Shown here: piece by piece, positions 27,450-33,248 of the stretch
Position numbering within the stretch: position 1 is the stretch's first letter
How the letters are laid out: every line of letters starts with the position of its first letter
The notes under the pieces: generated by a model
Told to the model about the DNA's origin: nothing
Seen by the model: the letters and a program-made list of their open reading frames with translations, nothing else
Database searches by the model: none
NCBI GenBank assembly: GCA_026646335.1
Contig: JAPKFY010000009.1
Span: 1 to 47,941, forward strand
DNA length: 47,941 nt
From: Aequorivita sp.
GTDB lineage: Bacteria; Bacteroidota; Bacteroidia; Flavobacteriales; Flavobacteriaceae
Reading direction: 5' to 3'
Made by a program: the position numbers and the translations under genes

Positions 27450-27497
27450 ATAAGGCAATTGCCCTATTGTGAAAACTTCCGGTTTGGGCCAATTTTG
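27450..27497 (+). promoter_or_regulatory. Operator-promoter site 1 (dyad + 22 nt + -7)
   Basis: The dyad ATAAGGCAATTGCCCTAT (27450-27467), 22 nt, then CAATTTTG (27490-27497) resembling TAnnTTTG. This is one of four sites with identical geometry in the next 5 kb. It precedes the lipoprotein gene at 27549. The dyad occupies the place of the -33 element, as expected for an activator that contacts RNA polymerase. Confidence 0.7.
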
Positions 27498-27548
27498 CTT
27501 CAACATTAATCACGTACCCGCATAGTCGGGGAACTAAAACCAAAAATT

Positions 27549-28070
27549 ATGAAACTATTCAACAAAACAATTTTAGTATTGATGGCAGTAGCTGCTATAA
27601 GTTTAACTTCTTGTAAAAAAGACGACGATGGTGGAGGCGGCGGTGATGCTGCTGCTTCTGGAACTGTAAGCGCAAAGGTTTCTGGCGCAAGCTATAATTC
27701 GGATCCTTTGGTAACCAGTGCCGTACGTTCCGATGCCAATGGGGTCAGCACTTTAATGATCACTTCAAATACCATGAACGGCAAAAACATCACTTTGTCA
27801 ATTAATGGTGGTTTTGACGGGGTAGGCACCTATAGCATTGGCGGCGGCCCCAACGTATTTGGCAATGCCAGCTATACAGAAGTAGATGTTAATAATCCAA
27901 CAAATTCAGAAATATGGGTTGCTCCCTATGATACAAGCGTTGCCGGCGAAATAAAAGTTTCGGAAGTTAGTTCAACCAACATTAAAGGTACTTTTAATTT
28001 TAAAGGCAAAAATGCGGATGGTACTTTTAAAGACATTACCGAAGGTTCATTCAATGTGGATTTCCAATAA
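27549..28070 (+). CDS. Small lipoprotein (DUF6252-like), part of the signalling module
   Basis: 173 residues with a lipoprotein signal (LMAVAAISLTSC), an acidic Asp/Gly-rich spacer (KKDDDGGGGG) and a beta-rich domain (GTVSAKVSGASYNSD, GGFDGVGTYSIGGG, IKGTFNFKGKNADG). It resembles small Bacteroidota lipoproteins of the DUF6252 kind. Its promoter carries the same dyad as the kinase and regulator genes, so it is a candidate target or sensory partner of the two-component system. That link is inference from the shared site. Confidence 0.8.
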   Translation: MKLFNKTILVLMAVAAISLTSCKKDDDGGGGGDAAASGTVSAKVSGASYNSDPLVTSAVRSDANGVSTLMITSNTMNGKNITLSINGGFDGVGTYSIGGGPNVFGNASYTEVDVNNPTNSEIWVAPYDTSVAGEIKVSEVSSTNIKGTFNFKGKNADGTFKDITEGSFNVDFQ

Positions 28071-28152
28071 GCAAATGCACTAAAGAAAATCTCTATGTTG
28101 AGGTTTTTACGTGGGCCGGGGGCGAAACGCAAGTTTTGTCTTCGGTTTTTTT

Positions 28153-28212
28153 TGTCCCCTCCCGACCTCCCCAGAGGGGAGGAGCTGTGAAAGAAATCCC
28201 CCTCTGGGAGTT
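28153..28212. repeat. Inverted CCCTCCC...AGAGGGG repeat
   Basis: Two imperfect ~20-bp arms of the CCCTCCCTAACTCCCCAGAGGGG type, with a CCTCCCC/GGGGAGG hairpin in the left arm. It lies between the lipoprotein gene and operator-promoter site 2. A related element is at 40443-40478. Confidence 0.75.
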
Positions 28213-28220
28213 AGGGAAAA

Positions 28221-28268
28221 ATACGTCAATTGCCCTATTGATTTCAGCTTTATTGTGAAGCATATTTG
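28221..28268 (+). promoter_or_regulatory. Operator-promoter site 2
   Basis: The dyad ATACGTCAATTGCCCTAT (28221-28238), 22 nt, then CATATTTG (28261-28268). Same geometry as sites 1, 3 and 4. It is upstream of the first kinase gene, but a terminator-like hairpin lies in between. Confidence 0.7.
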
Positions 28269-28312
28269 TTTAATAGTATTTAAGAGGTAATCTACTAACC
28301 AGATTATTTTTC

Positions 28313-28384
28313 AAACTGCAAAAGAGTTGAGGGACGTTTGCAGTTTTGAAACCCCATATTCAACTGTGGGGTTTATTTTTTTTC
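28313..28384 (+). terminator. Two hairpins and a U-tract in the leader of kinase 1
   Basis: A 10-bp perfect stem (AAACTGCAAA 28313-28322 / TTTGCAGTTT 28337-28346) is followed by an 8-bp stem (AAACCCCA 28349-28356 / TGGGGTTT 28367-28374) and a run of T. The second hairpin has the form of a strong intrinsic terminator. It sits after predicted promoter 2 and 32 bp before the kinase start codon. It may be an attenuator, or the end of a ~110-nt RNA made from promoter 2. Confidence 0.75.
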
Positions 28385-28415
28385 TGTACTTTAGGATTCT
28401 CAACAATGGCTTTTT

Positions 28416-30395
28416 ATGAAATGTGTTTTCTGCTTTTTTCTGTTTTTGTTTATGGGTCCTTCAACAGTCTTTTCCCAATCTCCCCAAAAGAAAATGGACA
28501 GTTTGATGCAGGTTGCCAAAACTGCAAATGATTCCACCAGACTTGCTATTTATAATGATTTGGGCTTTTATTATATTTTTAATGATCCAGAAAAAGCAAA
28601 AAGTTTTCTTCAAAAGGGATTAAGGGAAAATACTACTGCAGAAACAGCTTACAGTAAAACACGGCTTACCAATACCTTTGGAATATATTATGACGTAAAA
28701 GGCGTTTACGATTCGTCCCAATTCTATTTCAAGAAAGCACTTTTGATGAGCAAAAAATACGGTTTTCCTGACCTTGAGGCAAGATGCACAAACGGTCTGG
28801 GCATGTCCAATTGGAATCAAGGGAATTATCAAAATGCATTGGACTATTTCTTCGAGGCGCTTGCCCTGAACAGAAAATACGGCACACCCGATAAAGACGA
28901 CACTTACTTGAACAACATAGGCTTAATTTATCAAGACATGAATATGGCCGATAAAGCTTTGGAATATCATTACCAGGCCCTTGCTATCAGGAAAGAATAT
29001 AACAAAGCAAAAGATATCCCGGTTTCCATTAACAACATAGCTATTAATTTACTTGATAAAAGTGATTTTTCAGGGGCGGAAAAAATGCTTGTTGAAGGCA
29101 GAAATCTTGCCAATGAAGTGGGAAACCAGGATTTGTATTTTGACATCACCCATACTTTGGCAAGTCTGTACCAAAAGACAAATAGAACTGACCTCGCTAT
29201 ACCTCTCTTGCAAGAAGTGATAGACGGTAGGCTTTCTACGAAAATTGGGGTACATAGAGTGGTTGCCTCCATCAATAATCTTGCAGAGGCCTATATTCTA
29301 AAAAATAATTTAAAAGAAGCACTTAAGGTACTGAAGCAAGGCGAAAATTTAATCCAGCAATTTCCAGAACAAAAGATAAATATTTCTGAATATTATTATG
29401 CTGTATCACAAGCCAATTTTTTGAACAACGACCCCCAAAAAGGCAATGAATTTTTTATAAAGGCTATTGCCCTTCGGGACAGTATTTTTTCGAAGCAAAA
29501 TGCGGAAAATACCGCTGCGTTGGAAACTAAATTCAATATTTCCGAGAAAGAACTAGCTCTTGCCGAAACCCGTGCCAACCTCGCTGAAAGGGAACTGGAA
29601 GTGGAACAAAAAAATATTTTTATTTTCGGAATGGTTGCACTGGCATTTTTTCTTGCAATTTTCGGCTTTCTTGTGTATCGTCAGCAAAAACTTAAAACCA
29701 GCCAGTTGCAAAAAGAAGCTGAGCTAAAAACGGCCCTCGCAAAAATTGAAACCCAAAACCAGTTGCAGGAACAGCGCCTCCGCATTTCACGGGATTTACA
29801 CGACAATATTGGTTCTCAGCTCACTTTTATTATTTCTTCCATAGATAATTTAAAATTCGGTTTGGAAGGCGCGGCTAACTCTGTAACCGATAAATTAGGG
29901 AAGATAAGCGAGTTTACTTCACAGACCATTTATGAACTTCGGGATACCATTTGGGCCATGAACAAGACCGATATTTCCATTGAAGACCTGCAGGCGCGAA
30001 TTTCAAACTTTATTGAAAAAGCTAAAGTTGCAAGCGATGTCCATTTTCAATTTGATGTGGGCAAAACTCTTTTAAGAGAGACGCATTTTACCTCTGTGGA
30101 AGGAATGAATATTTATAGGATTATTCAGGAGTCAGTAAACAACGCTTTAAAATATTCCGAAGCAAAAAACATTCAGTTATCAATTGAAAAGGAAGTTTTT
30201 CCGTTAGAGGGAGCCGGTGGCGATATACGTAAATATAAAATAAAGGTCTTTGATGACGGCAAAGGGTTCAATTTGGAAAAAACCACTTTCGGTAACGGCA
30301 TTTCAAACATCAAAAAACGAGCAAAGGATTTGGGCGGAAAAGTGGAAATCACTTCAGAAAAAGGAAAAGGCACAACGGTCCAGCTTGAACTTTAA
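28416..30395 (+). CDS. TPR sensor histidine kinase 1
   Basis: 659 residues. A signal peptide (MKCVFCFFLFLFMGPSTVFS) is followed by about six tetratricopeptide repeats (~30-345, with units such as ALDYFFEALALNRKYG and ALEYHYQALAIRKEYN). Then come a coiled coil (~365-395), a membrane helix (~400-421) and a cytoplasmic HisKA_3 domain with His462 in SRDLHDNIGSQ. The C-terminal HATPase domain has NNALKYSEA, DDGKGF and GNGISNIKKRA. This is the NarX/LytS-like kinase class that partners NarL-type regulators. It is closely similar in plan to the kinase at 30742 and is probably a paralogue. The sensor part is predicted to be periplasmic. Confidence 0.92.
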   Translation: MKCVFCFFLFLFMGPSTVFSQSPQKKMDSLMQVAKTANDSTRLAIYNDLGFYYIFNDPEKAKSFLQKGLRENTTAETAYSKTRLTNTFGIYYDVKGVYDSSQFYFKKALLMSKKYGFPDLEARCTNGLGMSNWNQGNYQNALDYFFEALALNRKYGTPDKDDTYLNNIGLIYQDMNMADKALEYHYQALAIRKEYNKAKDIPVSINNIAINLLDKSDFSGAEKMLVEGRNLANEVGNQDLYFDITHTLASLYQKTNRTDLAIPLLQEVIDGRLSTKIGVHRVVASINNLAEAYILKNNLKEALKVLKQGENLIQQFPEQKINISEYYYAVSQANFLNNDPQKGNEFFIKAIALRDSIFSKQNAENTAALETKFNISEKELALAETRANLAERELEVEQKNIFIFGMVALAFFLAIFGFLVYRQQKLKTSQLQKEAELKTALAKIETQNQLQEQRLRISRDLHDNIGSQLTFIISSIDNLKFGLEGAANSVTDKLGKISEFTSQTIYELRDTIWAMNKTDISIEDLQARISNFIEKAKVASDVHFQFDVGKTLLRETHFTSVEGMNIYRIIQESVNNALKYSEAKNIQLSIEKEVFPLEGAGGDIRKYKIKVFDDGKGFNLEKTTFGNGISNIKKRAKDLGGKVEITSEKGKGTTVQLEL

Positions 30396-30424
30396 TTTTT
30401 ATTATCTTATCCATTATACTTTAA

Positions 30425-30472
30425 ATAAGGCAATTGCCCTATATGACTAAAAACGAAATACAATTATCTTTA
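30425..30472 (+). promoter_or_regulatory. Operator-promoter site 3
   Basis: The dyad ATAAGGCAATTGCCCTAT (30425-30442), identical to site 1, 22 nt, then TATCTTTA (30465-30472). It precedes the small membrane protein and kinase 2. The predicted transcription start is about 15 bp before the ATG at 30496. Confidence 0.72.
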
Positions 30473-30495
30473 AGCCCTAAACCCAATTCCGAAAA

Positions 30496-30738
30496 ATGTA
30501 TTTGCAAAACGCCATGGCATTATTACTAATAATCTCTGTTACAGGACTTATTCTGTGGTTTTTTAAGACAAAAAAAACAATGTATCGCATCCACAATCAA
30601 AATATTTTGGATTTGGAAAGCAACATTTCTAAAAATCGTTTTCAGATAAATTTTAGAAACGATAGCCTTAATAAATACGACTTTTTAAAATTTAATTTAA
30701 ATGAAGCATTGGTGGTTCAATTCGAAATCCAAACTTGA
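30496..30738 (+). CDS. Small single-helix membrane protein of the kinase locus
   Basis: 80 residues. One N-terminal membrane helix (~5-23, NAMALLLIISVTGLILWFF) is followed by a basic stretch and a ~50-residue polar region. There is no recognised family. It ends 3 bp before the kinase 2 start and has operator-promoter site 3 directly upstream, so it is very likely co-expressed with that kinase. An accessory role in signalling is possible. Confidence 0.65.
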   Translation: MYLQNAMALLLIISVTGLILWFFKTKKTMYRIHNQNILDLESNISKNRFQINFRNDSLNKYDFLKFNLNEALVVQFEIQT

Positions 30739-30741
30739 ACT

Positions 30742-32514
30742 ATGAAACGATTTCTACTTCAATTGGTAGCCGTTTTCATTTTTACTTCATCCTTTTCGCA
30801 GGATAAAAAAACTATTGATTCCATCAATAAACTCTATGTTCAAGGGCTTAATATTCCACAGGATTCCATTGTTTCTTTATTTCAGAAAAATTTAAAGGAG
30901 GCCGAAAAGATCTCATACGAGCTTGGTATGGCAGATGCGTATTCCCAATTGAGTCTGGTTTATGGTTATCAGGGAAAATATGAAGAAAGTGCAAAAAATA
31001 CCATTGAGGGCATAAAAATTTATGAAAAGCTAAACCAACTGGACAGGGTTGCTGATTACTATGCCGAAATGGGCTATAGCATGAAATACCGCGATTTAAA
31101 ACTGGCGCTTTATTACATGCAAAAAGGAAAAGCGGTTGCCGAAGTAAATAATTTTGAAAATGAACTCAAAGATATTTACAATAATTACGGCGTTTTAAAA
31201 GAAATAAACAACGAATTGGACAGCGCGCTCTATTATTATAACCGAGGTTTAGAAATCAAACTAAAGATTAATGATACCATAGGCATTCCGTATAGTTGGA
31301 GCAATATGGCCGGTGTTTATGGATTGCAGGAAAATTTTTCGAAATCAAGGGAATATTTTAATAAATCACTTCAGCAAAGGTTAGTGTGGGCAGATTCTTT
31401 GGGTATCGCTGAAAATTATACCCAACTGGGTGAAGTTTTTATGGCGGAAAAAAAATGGAACAATGCAATTCCATTAATGCACAAATCCTTGCCCATTTCA
31501 CTGAAAAAGCAATACCAAAACCTTACGCAGTACAACTACAAAATGCTTTCGGATATCTACAAGATTATGAACAATACAGATTCGGCTTTGTATTATTTTG
31601 AACAATATTCCACCCTAAAAGATAGTGTTCACAGTATAAAAATACAGGAAAGTATTGCAGCGCTAAACATTGAATTTGAAACCGAGAAGAAACAAAACGA
31701 AATCCTTCAACAACGTGCCCAACTTGCCGAAAAAGACTTGGAAGTCCGCCGTAAAAACACCTTTATTTTTGGCAGCTTGGGTCTTGCTTTGGTCTTGGGA
31801 TTACTGGGCTATTTGCTGTACAATCAGCAAAAATTGAAAAATCGGCAACTCCTAAAAGAAAGCGAATTGAAATCTGCCTTGGCAAAAATTGAAACCCAAA
31901 ACAAACTACAGGAACAACGCCTTCGGATTTCCCGCGATCTTCACGATAATATTGGGGCACAACTTACTTTCATCATTTCCAGTATTGATAATTTGAAATA
32001 TGGTTTTACGGACATCAGTGAAAAATTGGGCAATAAACTCAACAGTATTAGCAGTTTTACACAGCAAACCATTTATGAACTGCGCGACACAATTTGGGCG
32101 ATGAACAAAGAAAACATAACGTTTGAGGACTTGCAAGCACGTATCGCAAATTTTATAGAACACGCCAAAAACGCTTCGGAAAGAACTGAGTTTTCTTTCA
32201 ATATTGATAAAAATGTTGATGAAACTCATGTTTTTTCATCAGTTGAAGGAATGAATATTTATCGAATTATTCAAGAAGCCGTCAACAATTCCTTGAAGTA
32301 TGCTTTTGCAGATGAAATTGAAGTGAATATTTTAAAAGAAGAAGACGAGTATTTTATTGAGATAACAGATAATGGAGTAGGTTTTGATCAAGCTTCAATA
32401 AAAATGGGCAATGGATTGAACAATATGAAAAAACGCGCTCGGGAAATAAGCGGAACACTTCAAATTAAATCTTCAACAAATGGAACTTGTATACTTCTGA
32501 AGGTGCCGAAATAA
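30742..32514 (+). CDS. TPR sensor histidine kinase 2
   Basis: 590 residues. A signal peptide (~1-20, ending SSFSQ) is followed by TPR-like repeats (~35-300, for example ALYYYNRGLEIKLKIND), a coiled coil, and a membrane helix at ~341-362 (TFIFGSLGLALVLGLLGYLLY). The HisKA_3 domain has His401 in SRDLHDNIGAQ. The HATPase domain has NNSLKYAFA, DNGVGF and GNGLNNMKKRA. The catalytic half is nearly superimposable on kinase 1, while the sensor parts differ more. Only one response regulator is encoded nearby, so both kinases may feed it or may form heterodimers. Confidence 0.92.
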   Translation: MKRFLLQLVAVFIFTSSFSQDKKTIDSINKLYVQGLNIPQDSIVSLFQKNLKEAEKISYELGMADAYSQLSLVYGYQGKYEESAKNTIEGIKIYEKLNQLDRVADYYAEMGYSMKYRDLKLALYYMQKGKAVAEVNNFENELKDIYNNYGVLKEINNELDSALYYYNRGLEIKLKINDTIGIPYSWSNMAGVYGLQENFSKSREYFNKSLQQRLVWADSLGIAENYTQLGEVFMAEKKWNNAIPLMHKSLPISLKKQYQNLTQYNYKMLSDIYKIMNNTDSALYYFEQYSTLKDSVHSIKIQESIAALNIEFETEKKQNEILQQRAQLAEKDLEVRRKNTFIFGSLGLALVLGLLGYLLYNQQKLKNRQLLKESELKSALAKIETQNKLQEQRLRISRDLHDNIGAQLTFIISSIDNLKYGFTDISEKLGNKLNSISSFTQQTIYELRDTIWAMNKENITFEDLQARIANFIEHAKNASERTEFSFNIDKNVDETHVFSSVEGMNIYRIIQEAVNNSLKYAFADEIEVNILKEEDEYFIEITDNGVGFDQASIKMGNGLNNMKKRAREISGTLQIKSSTNGTCILLKVPK

Positions 32515-32533
32515 TATTCCTAGAGATAAATTA

Positions 32534-32581
32534 ATACGACAATTGCCCTATTTCCAATATTATTTATTAGACGTATCTTTA
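32534..32581 (+). promoter_or_regulatory. Operator-promoter site 4
   Basis: The dyad ATACGACAATTGCCCTAT (32534-32551), 22 nt, then TATCTTTA (32574-32581), 20 bp upstream of the response regulator ATG. The regulator therefore probably controls its own gene. Confidence 0.72.
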
Positions 32582-32600: not shown

Positions 32601-33248
32601 ATGCTAAAAATTGCAATAGTTGACGATAACACTTTTCTTATAAATGCCATTAAGGAAAAACTTTCCTTTTTTGATGACGTTTCCGTGAAACACACTTCGT
32701 TAAATGGCAGCGAACTACTTACGAAACTGCAAGAAAACCACAACCTAGATCTTATATTGATGGATATTGAAATGCCCGTGCTCAATGGCATTGAAACCAC
32801 CCAAATTGTAAAGCAGAAGTATCCGCACATCAAAATTATCATGCTCACAGCTTTTGACAACGACGAGCATATTTTCAACGCTATAAAAGCAGGTGCCGAT
32901 GGTTATTTGCTAAAAGAAATCAATCCGAAGGATTTATACGAAGGAATTATAGAAACTTTGAACGGCGGGGCGGCAATGAATCCTTCCATTGCGATGAAAA
33001 CCTTGAAACTATTGCGCAACCCAATCGATATTCAAAACCCGCGGGATCAAGAGGAAATTTCACTAACCACCCGTGAAGTTGAGGTTTTGGAGCAACTCAG
33101 CAAAGGTTTGAGTTATACTGTGATTGCCGATCATCTGTTTCTTTCGCCAAGCACCGTTCGAAAGCACATTGAAAATATCTACAAAAAACTACAGGTCCAC
33201 AGTAAGATTGAAGCGGTGCAAAAGGCGCGGAACCACAATATTATTTAA
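32601..33248 (+). CDS. NarL/LuxR-type response regulator
   Basis: 215 residues. The receiver domain (1-120) has the acidic pocket VDD, phospho-acceptor Asp55 in LMDIEMP, Thr in MLTAFD and Lys in LLKEI. The LuxR-type HTH (~155-210) has LTTREVEVLEQLSKGLSYTVIADHL and SPSTVRKHIENIYKKL. It is the natural partner of the two HisKA_3 kinases upstream. Proteins of this class bind inverted repeats as dimers. The dyad found at four promoters of this module, including its own, is the obvious candidate operator. Confidence 0.93.
   Translation: MLKIAIVDDNTFLINAIKEKLSFFDDVSVKHTSLNGSELLTKLQENHNLDLILMDIEMPVLNGIETTQIVKQKYPHIKIIMLTAFDNDEHIFNAIKAGADGYLLKEINPKDLYEGIIETLNGGAAMNPSIAMKTLKLLRNPIDIQNPRDQEEISLTTREVEVLEQLSKGLSYTVIADHLFLSPSTVRKHIENIYKKLQVHSKIEAVQKARNHNII

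Follow-up and report, generated by a model that had tools for sequence, protein, structure and literature searches.

The locus examined here raises the question of what four near-identical 18-base-pair (bp) dyads, standing within 5.1 kb of the genome of an Aequorivita sp., are for. They lie in a stretch of 47,941 nucleotides (nt) (assembly GCA_026646335.1, contig JAPKFY010000009.1), the whole of which is hereafter called the window. They accompany a module encoding, in this order, a DUF6252 lipoprotein, a kinase with TPR and HisKA_3 domains (kinase 1), a membrane protein of 80 amino acids (aa), a second TPR/HisKA_3 kinase (kinase 2) and a NarL-type response regulator (Table 1). We propose, with a probability of about 0.8, that each of the four sites combines an operator and a promoter controlled by this one regulator (32601-33248), which would activate its own genes, genes for probable secreted proteins and a small structured RNA at site 2.

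The dyads are found exactly where the preliminary description of this DNA had placed them, and all four fit its pattern, ATA[AC]G[GTA]CAATTGCCCTAT, without mismatch. The fixed distance that it claimed is equally exact, each octamer, which is similar to the -7 element TAnnTTTG of Bacteroidota primary-sigma promoters, beginning 22 nt past its dyad, and no further copy exists in the window at up to three mismatches. The pattern gives eight strand-wise matches, that is four sites on both strands; the sites are not attributable to chance, since shuffled windows give a mean of only 0.17 matches and at most 2. The rigidity of the arrangement extends to relatives. Dyads were gathered by the dyad pattern alone, with at most one mismatch, from 121 loci of regulator orthologues including the window; the relatives' loci come from the best 80 of 555 relatives and from a further group, of which 40 of 43 loci were used (G140, G047 and G041 being left out), and some genomes enter the 121 twice, once from each of two collections. 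With 14 of the 233 dyads set aside as spanned by a frame of at least 100 aa, 219 intergenic dyads remain, and the octamer [TC]AnnTTT[GA] lies exactly 22 nt past the dyad in 153 of them. The next best offset (31 nt) is found 8 times and the upstream mirror position twice, for an expectation of ~0.84 per offset. Thinning of similar sites, before which only identical 80-base sites had been removed, leaves the spacing in 118/178. Information content is concentrated in dyad and octamer, with nearly none in the spacer and flanks, and the consensus of the dyads approximates ATACGGCAATTGCCGTAT, which can be laid out as inverted heptamers 2 bp apart, TACGGCA-AT-TGCCGTA.

The distribution of the site follows that of the regulator. 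Orthologues (E<=1e-60) are present in 44/149 genomes and in 98/397 genomes of the family, usually one in each (two matches in 2/98). Of these 98 genomes, 48 have the strict 48-bp site vs 2/299 others (Fisher 1e-31), and the pattern read backwards has no match in the 397. The two exceptions are G386, which is 79% complete and belongs to the same genus as the regulator-bearing G233, and G181, with a single divergent site. Among 247 genomes sampled across the phylum, a set that overlaps with the family sample (some genomes, the window's included, are in both), the strict site is found in 6/13 with the regulator and 0/234 without. Spacing and co-occurrence taken together make the dyad very probably the operator of the 32601 regulator, as originally suggested. 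The protein belongs to the NarL/FixJ type by its domains (Response_reg 1.2e-24, GerE 5.5e-18), and its closest solved regulators are VraR and NarL (NarL 1a04, E 4.5e-29 across residues 4-207). It scores 131.1 bits with the NarL equivalog NF007935, under the curated cut-off of 250; judged by these matches it is of the same superfamily as NarL and is not NarL itself.

The operator core also varies with the recognition helix of the regulator. Helices with the residues PS go with a CANNTG core in 49 genomes vs another core in 1, and helices without PS, nearly all S-x-GT, with CANNTG in 14 vs 39 other. Counted by locus, with sites picked on the outer dyad bases only, PS-helix loci have the octamer at 22 nt in 130/182, with CANNTG in 125 of those 130; the other-helix loci, again nearly all S-x-GT, have this spacing in 59/108, with CANNTG in only 16/59.

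Two promoter classes appear to exist. Target promoters with an octamer at 22 nt have C rather than T as its first base in 89/133, and TTG overlaps the last dyad base in 75/133; in the regulator's own promoters with that octamer, the C-start is found in 1/20 and the TTG in 3/20. A second octamer at 30-33 nt occurs in 10/20 regulator promoters vs 2/133 targets. Both kinds of octamer are present in the window, one kind at sites 1 and 2, the other at sites 3 and 4. At L116, L117 and L118 a second TATCTTTA octamer lies ~31 nt past the dyad before the regulator, which suggests tandem promoters for this gene; the window has one only. In 64/113 distinct orthologues, a few of them poor, the 170 nt preceding the regulator gene contain a match to the outer bases of the dyad with no more than one mismatch, and the regulator is therefore probably autoregulated. 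The earlier proposal that it controls its own module is supported in this respect and too narrow in another, as sites at distant genes extend the predicted regulon beyond the module.

The -7 octamer of Flavobacterium psychrophilum is mapped at -12 to -5 in PMC9723704. If the octamers described here occupy the same place, the dyad spans about -52 to -35, centred at ~-43.5, and would lie just upstream of the -33 element instead of replacing it, as had been supposed. NarL sites are 7-2-7, and NarL activates ogt from a site centred at -44.5 (PMC7419079; PMC4549865); the dyad has this 7-2-7 layout close to the -35 region. We propose that a TPR kinase (kinase 2; here also kinase 1), probably with a periplasmic sensor, would phosphorylate the regulator, whose dimer would then bind the two heptamers of the dyad just upstream of the -33 region. 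The bound regulator could contact RNA polymerase and activate a promoter whose -7 octamer stands at a fixed distance and is often sub-optimal. This would switch on (a) the genes of the regulatory system itself, (b) genes, both nearby and distant, that encode probable secreted proteins and lipoproteins and (c), at site 2, a terminated structured RNA of ~110 nt.

The genome of the window (3.05 Mb, 94.4% complete) contains one more perfect dyad (C127:8327), 47 nt upstream of the start of a gene with a type IX secretion system sorting tail. The octamer 22 nt past this dyad, TATCATTT, is imperfect and does not fit the strict pattern. The 12 other matches, with one or two mismatches, have the strict octamer at 22 nt in 0/12 and were rejected as regulon members, including one inside a fabG-like frame on C116; 9/12 lie over a long reading frame. 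A one-mismatch intergenic dyad at L217:3368 (G000:C157:8367) precedes a secreted-type gene and has no octamer at 22 nt. Across the 219 sites, the downstream gene, taken as the longest among the first frames starting within 450 nt and not from curated annotation, is the regulator in 61, a member of a lipoprotein cluster in 51, a kinase in 29, a BamB-like protein in 21 and a MORN-repeat protein in 12, followed by smaller groups. One member each of the lipoprotein, BamB-like and MORN-repeat clusters was tested: that of the lipoprotein cluster, besides the window's, is DUF6252, that of the BamB-like cluster is a 622-aa BamB/PQQ_2-like protein, and the last has MORN repeats. In 19 regions distant from the regulator, selected for having a site, a start codon lies 44-58 nt past the dyad in 18, and in six of them (L198, L200-L204) the dyad precedes homologous secreted proteins, that of L200 having papain-like and DUF4384 domains by Pfam. 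A hydrophobic N-terminus is found in 119/121 target frames vs 687/1161 control frames by a crude, lax rule. It is probable that the targets are mostly genes with signal-peptide-like starts, encoding secreted or surface proteins. Two loci outside the family, L223 (G458) and L222 (G438), also have sites before genes that look, by eye, to have signal-peptide-like starts. The frames in the last ~1 kb of G000:C120 (L012) look G+C-rich and atypical of this genome, which gives the contig end a foreign appearance.

Site 2 was first described as preceding kinase 1. That description has to be revised, since between the two lies a structured segment that folds at -33.2 kcal/mol (z -3.96) and is closed by an intrinsic terminator, and kinase 1 is one of several occupants of this slot. 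In the Aequorivita-group loci, seven in number, the lipoprotein gene, the membrane protein with kinase 2, and the regulator are each preceded by a dyad in 7/7, that of the regulator having the strict octamer at 22 nt in 5/7; slot 2 contains kinase 1 in two, another secreted-type gene in two and the RNA without a gene in two, one locus being siteless. A model built from four sequences matches (E<=1e-7) 27/28 genomes of the window's genus, four of the 28 being in the model, vs 0/31 others, and also loci in other genera. Of 38 matches from this first model 26 were inspected and 21 used, weak ones to E 0.4 included, together with seven genus loci; the remaining matches were antisense, in frames or terminator-like by the analyst's reading. 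Alignment A3 was used in place of A2 because the latter held two antisense terminator matches. Among 22 sequences, both sides change in 25/29 pairs, and pairing is kept in 91.4% of 593 cells vs at most 49.8% in slid controls. The loop of hairpin 2 contains UGAGG in 25/28, and in a separate check its stems beat shuffles (p<0.05) in 22/28. A second model, R2, was searched in 80 of the 98 regulator-bearing genomes and in 80 regulator-free ones (78 in handle order plus the exceptions G386 and G181); at E<=1e-6 it matches 17/80 vs 1/80, that one being G386, and in the 10 of the 17 that are outside the model the RNA is within 10 kb of the regulator. Rfam gives no match at the gathering score, and eight sub-threshold hits of at most 28.5 bits, each below the cut-off of its family, were taken as chance; the RNA family is absent from Rfam.

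Other loci suggest a possible origin of this RNA. Of 14 non-Aequorivita loci, which include some weak matches to the model, 13 have a BamB-like frame whose end falls in the RNA's first 31 nt. Among twenty loci from the genus of the window, nine likewise have such a frame ending there, nine have promoter and RNA but no frame, one has the RNA with neither frame nor dyad, and one is unresolved. In the nine frame-less loci, the window included, a perfect dyad precedes the RNA, and the hairpin 2 loop lies 85-89 nt past the dyad in the eight measured. In the downstream-frame cluster of the BamB-like gene, this gene has a dyad of its own, with the octamer at 22 nt in 20/21, and the start of the window RNA resembles, by eye, a remnant of the last codons of this gene. 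We infer that the BamB-like gene was lost in the lineage of the window, leaving promoter and RNA.

A number of points weigh against the activator reading and its extensions. The strict site is absent from 50 of the 98 regulator-bearing family genomes, the p-values overstate independence because sites and genomes are related, and the regulator's own promoter has the strict octamer at 22 nt in only 20/43. In a tree of receiver domains, the association of helix and core has three independent pairs on supported branches and none opposing, which is below significance; it is largely phylogenetic, and because the independent changes are too few it is only suggestive that the core tracks the recognition helix. 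The probable secretion of the targets depends on the lax N-terminal rule given above. The RNA alignment was fitted to its own model, the stems of hairpin 2 did not beat shuffles in 6/28, and 7/17 of the R2 genomes are in the model. At E<=1e-4, the cut-off of the searches themselves, R2 matches 22/80 regulator-bearing vs 7/80 other genomes, and because of those 7/80 its weak hits were treated as background.

It may be argued that the regulator binds the dyad and represses, by occluding the -33 region until a signal relieves it. The dyad abuts that region, which is also a repressor position, so that position alone is compatible with repression, and NarL itself represses some promoters (PMC4549865). 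The rigid 22-nt spacing and the C-start octamers of 89/133 targets are better suited to contact between an activator and polymerase, and FimR, the closest studied parallel in the Bacteroidota among those found, acts as an activator according to PMC1974823 and PMC5706477. Since the spacing is rigid and the -7 element weakened, activation is favoured, and we regard repression as unlikely. A doubt of the same order concerns the RNA, which might be only the terminated leader, or attenuator, of kinase 1 and not a free small RNA: in the window and in L118 kinase 1 follows it immediately, beyond a terminator. In the Aequorivita loci L116 and L117, promoter and RNA are kept without kinase 1 in place, and this, like the even division of the genus loci between RNA with promoter but no BamB-like frame (9/20) and RNA at the 3' end of that frame (9/20), makes a mere leader improbable.

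A further alternative is that an unlinked transcription factor binds the dyad and the regulator is just one target, as the occurrence of dyads at other genes might indicate. The near confinement of the sites to regulator-bearing genomes in both samples, the geometry of a NarL-type dimer and a core that varies with the recognition helix, though with too few independent changes for significance, make this very unlikely. That the four near-identical 18-mers are copies of a mobile repeat spread through the cluster is rejected, since dyad and octamer are conserved while spacer and flanks are nearly information-free, which contradicts a repeat origin, and the same arrangement stands at unrelated genes in many genera.

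Table 1. Sites, genes and RNA of the module, with positions in the window
Feature	Position	Strand	Basis or remark
Dyad 1, predicted operator before the DUF6252-type lipoprotein gene	27450..27467	+	pattern match; same-place site in 7/7 Aequorivita-group loci
-7-like octamer CAATTTTG, 22 nt past dyad 1	27490..27497	+	target class: first base C, TTG at dyad end
Lipoprotein gene, DUF6252 (PF19765)	27549..28070	+	Pfam match
Dyad 2, predicted operator before the structured RNA	28221..28238	+	pattern match and locus comparison
-7-like octamer CATATTTG, 22 nt past dyad 2	28261..28268	+	pattern match
Small structured RNA, three hairpins, UGAGG in hairpin 2 loop	28273..28382	+	fold and covariation; start set from inferred transcription start
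Intrinsic terminator of the RNA	28349..28382	+	terminator prediction
Kinase 1: TPR, HisKA_3, HATPase_c	28416..30395	+	Pfam; absent from this slot in 5/7 Aequorivita-group loci
Dyad 3, predicted operator before small membrane protein and kinase 2	30425..30442	+	pattern match and locus comparison
-7-like octamer TATCTTTA, 22 nt past dyad 3	30465..30472	+	pattern match
Small membrane protein, 80 aa	30496..30738	+	Pfam/NCBIfam scan
Kinase 2: TPR, HisKA_3, HATPase_c	30742..32514	+	Pfam match
Dyad 4, predicted operator before the response regulator gene	32534..32551	+	pattern match and locus comparison
-7-like octamer TATCTTTA, 22 nt past dyad 4	32574..32581	+	pattern match
Response regulator, NarL/FixJ type (Response_reg, GerE)	32601..33248	+	Pfam and structure-sequence match

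A kinase domain is present within 4 kb upstream of the regulator in 102/108 loci with enough sequence. Against the FimS model NF053520 (curated cut-off 600 bits), kinase 1 scores 70.1 bits and kinase 2 51 bits, both below. The 80-aa membrane protein has no match in Pfam or NCBIfam, and its C-terminal YDFxxYNLxEALV-like motif, searched as a narrow pattern, is found in only 11/113 regulator loci.

Among known systems, GacS-GacA offers a NarL-type regulator that acts via a fixed palindrome before the small RNAs RsmY and RsmZ. The present RNA differs in being an mRNA 3' end in other genomes. The NarX/NarQ-NarL system of Escherichia coli, at the ogt and yeaR promoters, shares a NarL/FixJ regulator and a site, close to -35 on its upstream side, made of two inverted heptamers with 2 bp between them; the heptamer differs (TACCCCT at the engineered narG -89 site, PMC4549865, vs TACGGCA here), as do the Bacteroidota -7-like octamer at a rigid distance, the TPR kinases and targets consisting of probable surface proteins and a small RNA. 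FimS-FimR of Porphyromonas gingivalis (PMC1974823, PMC5706477) resembles the system proposed here in having a periplasmic TPR-sensor kinase and a regulator that activates; the genes activated there are fimbrial, and the available parts of those papers contain no operator sequence, 22-nt grammar or RNA. Rfp18 of F. psychrophilum (PMC9723704), likened by description and not by sequence, is also a conserved structured flavobacterial RNA and affects secreted proteases, with no two-component control in the available part of that source. The available part of a paper on Aequorivita marisscotiae (PMC10663628) names two-component genes in general terms only. The literature searches made returned nothing on the motif, the regulator or the RNA, and that on DUF6252 returned no paper.

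The operator with its defined promoter grammar, the regulon reaching probable surface proteins and the RNA family outside Rfam are, on the sequence evidence assembled here, very probably real. At even odds, it can further be hypothesised that a NarL-type system with a rigid promoter code, present in several classes of Bacteroidota, controls surface proteins as well as a small RNA acting in trans, the latter in Aequorivita and genera close to it. This RNA would have arisen as the 3'-terminal part of a target mRNA and been freed by loss of the coding part, with the promoter fused at its start site. For a conserved flavobacterial two-component system, the analysis supplies an operator that can be read, a prediction of the regulon and the grammar of its promoters, and one genus exhibits both states of the RNA, joined to a gene at its 3' end and free-standing.

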